NCBI RefSeq assembly: GCF_000695685.1
Contig: NZ_JFFR01000003.1
Coordinates: forward strand, 1-64,000
Source of the DNA: Vibrio fortis
GTDB taxonomy: Bacteria > Pseudomonadota > Gammaproteobacteria > Enterobacterales > Vibrionaceae
Direction: 5' to 3'
DNA length: 64,000 nt
Shown: positions 17,511 to 18,711 of the stretch, one piece after another
Position numbering within the stretch: the first letter of the stretch is position 1
Layout of the letters: each line of letters opens with the position of its first letter
Notes under the pieces: generated by a model
Seen by the model: the letters and a program-made list of their open reading frames with translations, nothing else
Told to the model about the DNA's origin: nothing
Database searches by the model: none
Translations under genes and position numbers: made by a program

Positions 17511-17583
17511 TGGCGCGCTCTGGAGGATTCGAACCTCCGACCGCCTGGTTCGTAGCCAGGTACTCTATCCAGCTGAGCTAAGG
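17511..17583 (-). tRNA. tRNA-Arg(ACG), copy 1, 5' end lost in poly-C
   Basis: The minus-strand sequence contains the D stem, an anticodon arm CCTGGCTACGAACCAGG (anticodon ACG), T-arm GGTTCGAATCC and encoded CCA. The 3' acceptor strand is AGAGCGC. The first four bases of the gene are replaced by the poly-C run, and the remaining 5' bases match the other acceptor type (GCGTCCT), so the copy looks chimeric. Confidence 0.75.
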
Positions 17584-17649
17584 CCCCCCCCCCCCCCCCC
17601 CCCCCCCCCCCCCCCCCCCCCCCCCCCCCCCCCCCCCCCCCCCCCCCCC
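17584..17649. repeat. Poly-C run 1 (66 nt), probable artefact
   Basis: An uninterrupted C homopolymer that replaces the 5' end of tRNA-Arg copy 1 and part of the spacer. Six such runs occur only inside this array, each touching a tRNA copy. Confidence 0.9.
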
Positions 17650-17708
17650 TGTATCAACTAAAGTCAATACTAGGATTCCATACTCATAAGAGAGGAGCCT
17701 TTAAATAG

Positions 17709-17752
17709 TGGCGCGTCCTGGAGGATTCGAACCTCCGACCGCCTGGTTCGTA
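17709..17752 (-). tRNA. tRNA-Arg fragment, copy 2
   Basis: Only the 3' 44 nt are present (CCA end, acceptor strand AGGACGC, T arm, anticodon 3' side). The sequence breaks into poly-C within the anticodon loop. It cannot encode a functional tRNA as written. Confidence 0.7.
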
Positions 17753-17827
17753 CCCCCCCCCCCCCCCCCCCCCCCCCCCCCCCCCCCCCCCCCCCCCCCC
17801 CCCCCCCCCCCCCCCCCCCCCCCCCCC
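17753..17827. repeat. Poly-C run 2 (75 nt), probable artefact
   Basis: C homopolymer that starts immediately after CGTA of the anticodon loop of tRNA-Arg copy 2. Confidence 0.9.
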
Positions 17828-17866
17828 GATACCAACATCAGGAGTTCACTAGGAAACCCTAAATAG

Positions 17867-17939
17867 TGGCGCGCTCTGGAGGATTCGAACCTCCGACCGC
17901 CTGGTTCGTAGCCAGGTACTCTATCCAGCTGAGCTAAGG
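17867..17939 (-). tRNA. tRNA-Arg(ACG), copy 3, 5' end lost in poly-C
   Basis: Same body and anticodon ACG as copy 1, with 3' acceptor strand AGAGCGC and 5' remnant of the other acceptor type. The spacer before it (GGAGTTCACTAGGAAACCC) is shared with copies 4, 5 and 7. Confidence 0.75.
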
Positions 17940-18002
17940 CCCCCCCCCCCCCCCCCCCCCCCCCCCCCCCCCCCCCCCCCCCCCCCCCCCCCCCCCCCCC
18001 CC
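17940..18002. repeat. Poly-C run 3 (63 nt), probable artefact
   Basis: C homopolymer replacing the 5' acceptor end of tRNA-Arg copy 3. Confidence 0.9.
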
Positions 18003-18058
18003 AGTTTTTGATATCAGCATTACCAATATCAGGAGTTCACTAGGAAACCCTTAAATAG

Positions 18059-18102
18059 TGGCGCGTCCTGGAGGATTCGAACCTCCGACCGCCTGGTTCG
18101 TA
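18059..18102 (-). tRNA. tRNA-Arg fragment, copy 4
   Basis: A 44-nt 3' portion identical in extent to copy 2, with acceptor strand AGGACGC, broken at the same anticodon-loop position. Confidence 0.7.
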
Positions 18103-18193
18103 CCCCCCCCCCCCCCCCCCCCCCCCCCCCCCCCCCCCCCCCCCCCCCCCCCCCCCCCCCCCCCCCCCCCCCCCCCCCCCCCCCCCCCCCCCC
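18103..18193. repeat. Poly-C run 4 (91 nt), probable artefact
   Basis: Longest of the six C runs; it starts at exactly the same tRNA base as run 2. Confidence 0.9.
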
Positions 18194-18248
18194 AGTTTTC
18201 GATATCGGTATTACCAACATCAGGAGTTCACTAGGAAACCCTAAATAG

Positions 18249-18325
18249 TGGCGCGCTCTGGAGGATTCGAACCTCCGACCGCCTGGTTCGTAGCCAGGTA
18301 CTCTATCCAGCTGAGCTAAGGACGC
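18249..18325 (-). tRNA. tRNA-Arg(ACG), copy 5, full length but mismatched acceptor stem
   Basis: A 77-nt tRNA-Arg with anticodon ACG and encoded CCA. Its 5' acceptor strand is GCGTCCT and its 3' strand AGAGCGC; these pair with a C-A mismatch at position 5-68 and a G-U at 4-69, whereas matched pairs would be GCGTCCT/AGGACGC or GCGCTCT/AGAGCGC. This looks like a join of two gene copies. The inosine-modified ACG anticodon would read CGU, CGC and CGA. Confidence 0.75.
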
Positions 18326-18326
18326 A

Positions 18327-18404
18327 CCCCCCCCCCCCCCCCCCCCCCCCCCCCCCCCCCCCCCCCCCCCCCCCCCCCCCCCCCCCCCCCCCCCCCCCCC
18401 CCCC
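18327..18404. repeat. Poly-C run 5 (78 nt), probable artefact
   Basis: C homopolymer starting two bases beyond the 5' end of tRNA-Arg copy 5; the only run that does not truncate the tRNA. Confidence 0.9.
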
Positions 18405-18478
18405 GATATTAATTGCCAAAGGCATAATAATCAATATCAGGATTCTCATTCTATTAAGAAAGAAAGCCCTAGAATAAG

Positions 18479-18545
18479 TGGCGCGTCCTGGAGGATTCGA
18501 ACCTCCGACCGCCTGGTTCGTAGCCAGGTACTCTATCCAGCTGAG
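18479..18545 (-). tRNA. tRNA-Arg(ACG), copy 6, 5' end lost in poly-C
   Basis: Body with anticodon ACG and 3' acceptor strand AGGACGC. The sequence breaks in the D stem (GCTC), so the 5' acceptor strand is missing. Confidence 0.75.
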
Positions 18546-18596
18546 CCCCCCCCCCCCCCCCCCCCCCCCCCCCCCCCCCCCCCCCCCCCCCCCCCC
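18546..18596. repeat. Poly-C run 6 (51 nt), probable artefact
   Basis: C homopolymer replacing the 5' part of tRNA-Arg copy 6. Confidence 0.9.
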
Positions 18597-18634
18597 ATTC
18601 CAATATCAGGAGTTCACTAAGAAACCCTAAATAG

Positions 18635-18711
18635 TGGCGCGCTCTGGAGGATTCGAACCTCCGACCGCCTGGTTCGTAGCCAGGTACTCTATCCAGCTGA
18701 GCTAAGAGCGC
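18635..18711 (-). tRNA. tRNA-Arg(ACG), copy 7, intact
   Basis: A complete 77-nt tRNA with matched acceptor strands GCGCTCT/AGAGCGC, anticodon ACG, GGTTCGAATCC T arm and encoded CCA. It is the only fully consistent Arg copy in the array and lies 42 bp downstream of tRNA-Ser in the same transcript. Confidence 0.95.

Follow-up and report, generated by a model that had tools for sequence, protein, structure and literature searches.

Poly-C runs in a tRNA-Arg array of Vibrio fortis are probably filler from scaffold gap filling

The tRNA-Arg array and its poly-C runs

The window, that is, the whole stretch of 64,000 nt that was analysed, covers C3:1–64000 of the Vibrio fortis assembly G000, which comprises 5.286 Mb in 33 contigs. 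It contains an array of seven tRNA-Arg(ACG) units on the minus strand, followed by one tRNA-Ser(GCT). The array is interrupted by six pure C runs, located within 17584–18596. Tandem Repeats Finder and a regular-expression scan both identified all six, with the lengths given in the initial annotation. The features are as follows; no strand is assigned to the runs.

17511–17583, minus strand: tRNA-Arg(ACG) copy 1, 5′ end cut; CT-type 3′ acceptor, last base before the run suits the other type
17584–17649: poly-C run 1, 66 nt
17709–17752, minus strand: tRNA-Arg copy 2, lacking the 5′ half up to the anticodon region
17753–17827: poly-C run 2, 75 nt
17867–17939, minus strand: tRNA-Arg copy 3, cut and mixed like copy 1
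17940–18002: poly-C run 3, 63 nt
18059–18102, minus strand: tRNA-Arg copy 4, lacking the 5′ half up to the anticodon region
18103–18193: poly-C run 4, 91 nt
18249–18325, minus strand: tRNA-Arg copy 5, of full length, with mixed arms (5′ GCGTCCT, 3′ AGAGCGC)
18327–18404: poly-C run 5, 78 nt
18479–18545, minus strand: tRNA-Arg copy 6, lacking the 5′ end up to approximately the D arm
18546–18596: poly-C run 6, 51 nt
18635–18711, minus strand: tRNA-Arg copy 7, the only one of the seven with 7/7 acceptor pairs
18754–18846, minus strand: tRNA-Ser(GCT), one of two expected from relatives

Each of the six runs marks the right-hand end of its tRNA-Arg unit and, because the tRNAs of the array are on the minus strand, this places every run on the tRNA 5′ side. 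In the rest of the window, C and G runs each reach 5 nt at most. Based on the frequency with which C follows C in the window, the number of runs of at least 51 nt expected by chance in 5.29 Mb is about 7e-30.

The tRNA copies next to the runs are themselves abnormal. The acceptor stem of copy 5 has 5/7 Watson–Crick pairs, and its two arms belong to different acceptor types. Copies 1 and 3 also seem to join two acceptor types, by one base each, in that the single type-telling base before the run suits the other type. Fully paired (7/7) acceptor stems occur in 1/7 copies of the window, compared with 56/56 tRNA-Arg copies in eight relatives, and the window does not present an intact array of complete copies with paired acceptor stems. 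The ARAGORN calls for copies 1 and 3 (17511–17586 and 17867–17942) have a 5′ acceptor strand made up partly of C from the runs, as do the Rfam calls; for copy 1, the ARAGORN and Rfam calls end at 17586 and 17587 respectively, taking in Cs of run 1.

Comparison with arrays of related genomes

Arrays were fetched from 8 of 18 same-genus genomes, among 30 relatives searched. Not all of these eight genomes are closed, and the array of G004 lies on a 31-kb contig. All eight arrays are uninterrupted and have the order Arg(4–7)-Ser-Arg-Ser, with no C or G run longer than 7 nt. They contain three acceptor types; five of the arrays combine the two that the window shows. The spacing from copy to copy is 156–230 nt in the window as against 116–178 nt in the relatives (n = 40 spacings).

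All eight fetched arrays have a tRNA-Ser between the last two Arg copies. A search with the corresponding segment of G009 found no second tRNA-Ser at 18596–18754 or elsewhere in the V. fortis assembly: the segment matched the known tRNA-Ser at C3:18752 and, weakly, one place on C2, and its spacers had no match at an E value of 0.001. The left spacer of copy 7 resembles that of an inner copy, while its right spacer is that of the last copy. Because the tRNA-Ser found in all eight relatives is unmatched here, copy 7 probably represents two copies that have been collapsed, although the missing tRNA-Ser may instead be a true deletion in this strain.

We also compared the lengths of the runs with those of the sequence that they appear to replace. 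A comparison of the spacers by eye puts the missing sequence at approximately 13, 50, 6, 35, 7 and 28 nt for runs 1–6, which consist of 66, 75, 63, 91, 78 and 51 C, so that the runs of the array are roughly 23–71 nt too long. At two loci outside the array the discrepancy goes the other way, with runs 340–430 nt too short when compared with a single relative, G009: there are 109 C at C20:154161 against about 450 nt in G009 (the most similar of four relatives searched), and 128 C at C2:1015702 against about 560 nt. Relatives differ in the distance between the flanks of the C20 locus (G017, 410 nt; G005, 1319 nt). Run lengths are not comparable at the FimV-like locus of C25, because G009 carries more copies of one repeat unit. 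As judged from these comparisons, the run lengths seem unlike those expected of real sequence. The idea that the filler matches the missing sequence in length was ruled out by the spacers of the array (by eye) and by the two loci in G009. Of the coding runs that have an open frame on both sides, 3/4 keep the reading frame; the chance of at least three in four is about 0.11.

The view, already expressed in the initial annotation, that this assembly does not reveal how many tRNA-Arg genes there truly are, or what their spacers are, is supported.

Distribution of runs in the assembly

The initial annotation described the tracts as occurring only here, which holds within the window and fails for the assembly, where there are 20 further runs. 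A search for C runs of at least 14 nt in the assembly found 25 starts and 26 ends on the forward strands of the contigs and none on the reverse strands; no G run of at least 14 nt was found in these contigs. The extra end belongs to a run of 42 C that directly follows 498 N (C19:3158–3655; positions 814–1353 of L022 correspond to C19:3158–3697). The 498-N stretch may be an original gap or masking by the operators. In total there are 26 C runs of 27–288 nt on nine contigs, all in the forward orientation, of which 25 are no longer than 137 nt and one is 288 nt. Only two of the 26 lie within 200 nt of a contig end; the other 24 are further away.

If the runs were independent, the chance of finding 26/26 in one orientation would be about 3e-8 (two-sided); if only the contigs were independent, the corresponding figure for 9/9 contigs is about 0.004. 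The direction of the runs is independent of the strand of the neighbouring tRNA, since there are tRNAs on both strands. At tRNAs on the plus strand (Tyr on C2, Pro on C18, and copies of Thr and Asn on C19) the runs lie within the 3′ part of the gene or past it. The association with the tRNA 5′ side is therefore correct for the six runs of the array and not a general rule, and a biological tract tied to the direction of the tRNA is ruled out.

By our own tally, 19/26 runs fall within or next to a tRNA or 5S gene (Arg 6, Tyr 2, Gln/Met 1, Pro 1, Asn/Thr 5, 5S 2, Leu 1 and Gly 1). The other seven are in a large repetitive protein (2), an acidic FimV-like repetitive protein (2), a CheW-like/ParA-like intergenic region (1), a csdE/csdA-like locus (1) and contig C27 (1), the last of which had no match in the four relatives searched. 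The names FimV, CheW, ParA, csdE and csdA are presumed from the resemblance of the reading frames. We note that the run at C20:154161–154269 (L028 1502–1610) occupies the place where the facing 3′ ends of the csdE-like and csdA-like genes would be expected. Coding frames and a 5S gene are also broken by runs, and there are cut or mixed tRNAs next to runs.

The 60-nt flanks of the runs were searched against the fetched pieces plus the window, with shortest best matches of 18–19 nt. A second match was found for 20/26 left flanks and 15/26 right flanks, compared with 3/200 control stretches from the window; there was none for 6/26 left flanks, one of which is all N, or for 11/26 right flanks. Next to runs at about 6.4 kb of C19 and at the end of C20 there are duplicated stretches, which look like unmerged piece ends or poor joins.

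Poly-C and poly-G runs in other genomes

We then looked at how such runs are distributed in other assemblies. Runs of at least 60 nt in the genomes of other species gave at least 120 stretches (several contigs for some genomes) containing at least 124 runs, which are counts of a sample. Among the matches listed, there are 48 C and 9 G runs at 5′ contig ends (within 200 nt), 41 G and 13 C at 3′ ends, and 7 G plus 6 C internal runs. That is, 89/111 end runs in this set are C at the 5′ end or G at the 3′ end, and 22 are the opposite. The pattern of end runs in other genomes is therefore mostly that of read tails. The matches listed (L062–L181) come from species-representative genomes that carry poly-C at the 5′ ends of contigs and poly-G at their 3′ ends, in runs of at least 60 nt. 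By the same rule the V. fortis assembly has 21 runs, all of them C: 19 are internal and, of the two others, one lies at a 5′ end and the other at a 3′ end.

For 12 genomes picked for internal runs, C30 runs were counted on each strand. The two richest are mixed (18+/10− and 33+/25−), with many runs near contig ends; of the remaining ten, one has 1+/4−, one has 1+/1−, two lack such runs and six contain one or two, confined to a single strand. Within the family, C30 occurs in 3/329 genomes, including the V. fortis assembly (24 or 25); the other two hold one and two. G104 matched only the control pattern and would bring the family count to four. The V. fortis assembly stands out as both rich in runs and wholly one-sided.

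Origin of the runs

We consider it probable that the six runs are not DNA but filler, arising from scaffold gap filling in the array. The step responsible was most likely scaffolding followed by gap filling, or the use of a placeholder letter. The near-identical tRNA-Arg array would not be traversable by the assembly, and pieces starting in distinct spacers would be set into a scaffold. Gap filling would extend the left-hand piece into the tRNA repeat, at times along the wrong copy, and the remainder would be written as C on the forward strand of the scaffold. Such filler should be a single letter on the scaffold strand regardless of gene orientation, should be located at repeats that break assemblies, and should be absent from relatives. 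The corresponding observations are 26/26 runs as C on the forward strand and none on the reverse; 19/26 runs at tRNA or 5S genes, with second matches for 20/26 left flanks against 3/200 controls, which agrees with the earlier suggestion that collapsed tRNA repeats are where the assembly broke; and uninterrupted arrays in 8/8 relatives fetched, of 18 same-genus genomes searched. Because the assembly is rich in runs and wholly one-sided, it is most likely that C was entered in the orientation of the scaffold. Several observations count against filler. The C run beside 498 N implies that not every gap became C, unless the N are the operators' masking; 25/26 runs are no longer than 137 nt, as tails limited by read length would also give; 6/26 left and 11/26 right flanks lack a second match in the fetched pieces plus the window; the one-strandedness is far less striking when counted by contig than by run; and the flank distance at the C20 locus varies among relatives, while 3/4 coding runs keep the frame.

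The initial annotation attributed the tracts to signal lost during two-colour sequencing. Such instruments call G where the signal is lost, and poly-G read tails could extend pieces into repeats and be carried into scaffolds. The length limit of 137 nt for 25/26 runs would suit such tails, as would the expected orientation of contig-end runs elsewhere (48 C at 5′ and 41 G at 3′ of 111, among the matches listed) and the runs beside N in other genomes (N then C in L071, G then N in L133). One-sidedness is also not rare when runs are few, since 6/12 genomes with internal runs have one or two C30 on a single strand. However, tails predict G to the left and C to the right of breaks in similar numbers, and we found 26 C and 0 G; both run-rich assemblies are mixed (18+/10− and 33+/25−), extension would have to work from one side only, and one run is 288 nt. 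With 19 internal C runs and no G, compared with 7 G and 6 C elsewhere among the matches listed, we regard signal loss as a doubtful direct cause and, on balance, an unlikely one, although read tails may have been the raw material for one-directional filler. Deliberate masking, in which a known stretch of each repeat is overwritten with C at its exact length, would be consistent with the frame being kept in 3/4 coding runs (chance about 0.11); it is very improbable, given that the lengths are unlike those in relatives (about 23–71 nt over in the array, 340–430 nt under at two loci relative to G009) and that the mixed tRNA copies are left unexplained. Finally, the tracts could be real poly-C/poly-G, expanded at tRNA, 5S and coding repeats by, for example, slippage or structured G4/i-motif DNA. 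The sequence as given does read as six pure tracts at one array, but they are pure, of many lengths and on the same contig strand on nine contigs whatever the tRNA strand; they are absent from 8/8 relatives' arrays fetched, and they interrupt coding frames as well as a 5S gene and lie next to tRNAs that are cut or mixed. We give real expansion almost no credence. The initial judgement that the tracts are not plausible genomic DNA is upheld: with C on one strand only, a repeat context and uninterrupted relatives, they are very probably an artefact.

Filler as the preferred reading makes the runs relevant to data quality only, and there is no biological feature at the locus beyond an ordinary tRNA-Arg/tRNA-Ser cluster. 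The tRNA counts for this assembly are unreliable, because the ARAGORN calls at 17511 and 17867 are partly built on filler, and C runs are present in several genes in other parts of it. Such tracts can occur even in a genome with a completeness rating of 100%, and counting long homopolymers on each strand is of help in separating filler from read tails.

Comparison with known systems

The closest procedural parallel is the misfilling of repeat gaps. In the available text of PMC3626529, wildcards between contigs are replaced using context and read pairs, as by GapCloser, and similar repeats can mislead the choice of fill (PMC3626529). Misfilled gaps of this type resemble the V. fortis assembly in the mixed tRNA copies and unfitting lengths; they differ in that filling with C is not described in that text. 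In the titles and opening parts of abstracts searched, no report on poly-C gap filler was found; the subject of PMC11140927, as its available text presents it, is the detection of homopolymers.

The contig-end poly-G/poly-C artefact shares with the V. fortis assembly the long pure G or C runs at assembly breaks. In that artefact the runs are mostly C at the 5′ end and G at the 3′ end, whereas here they are all C on the forward strand and mostly internal.

The locus itself resembles the tRNA-Arg/tRNA-Ser cluster of other genomes of the genus, which we take to be Vibrio-like: it has Arg copies with Ser at the right-hand end and shares two acceptor types, and its right-hand end is 98% identical to that of G009. 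It differs from the same-genus cluster in having one tRNA-Ser fewer and six C runs in between.
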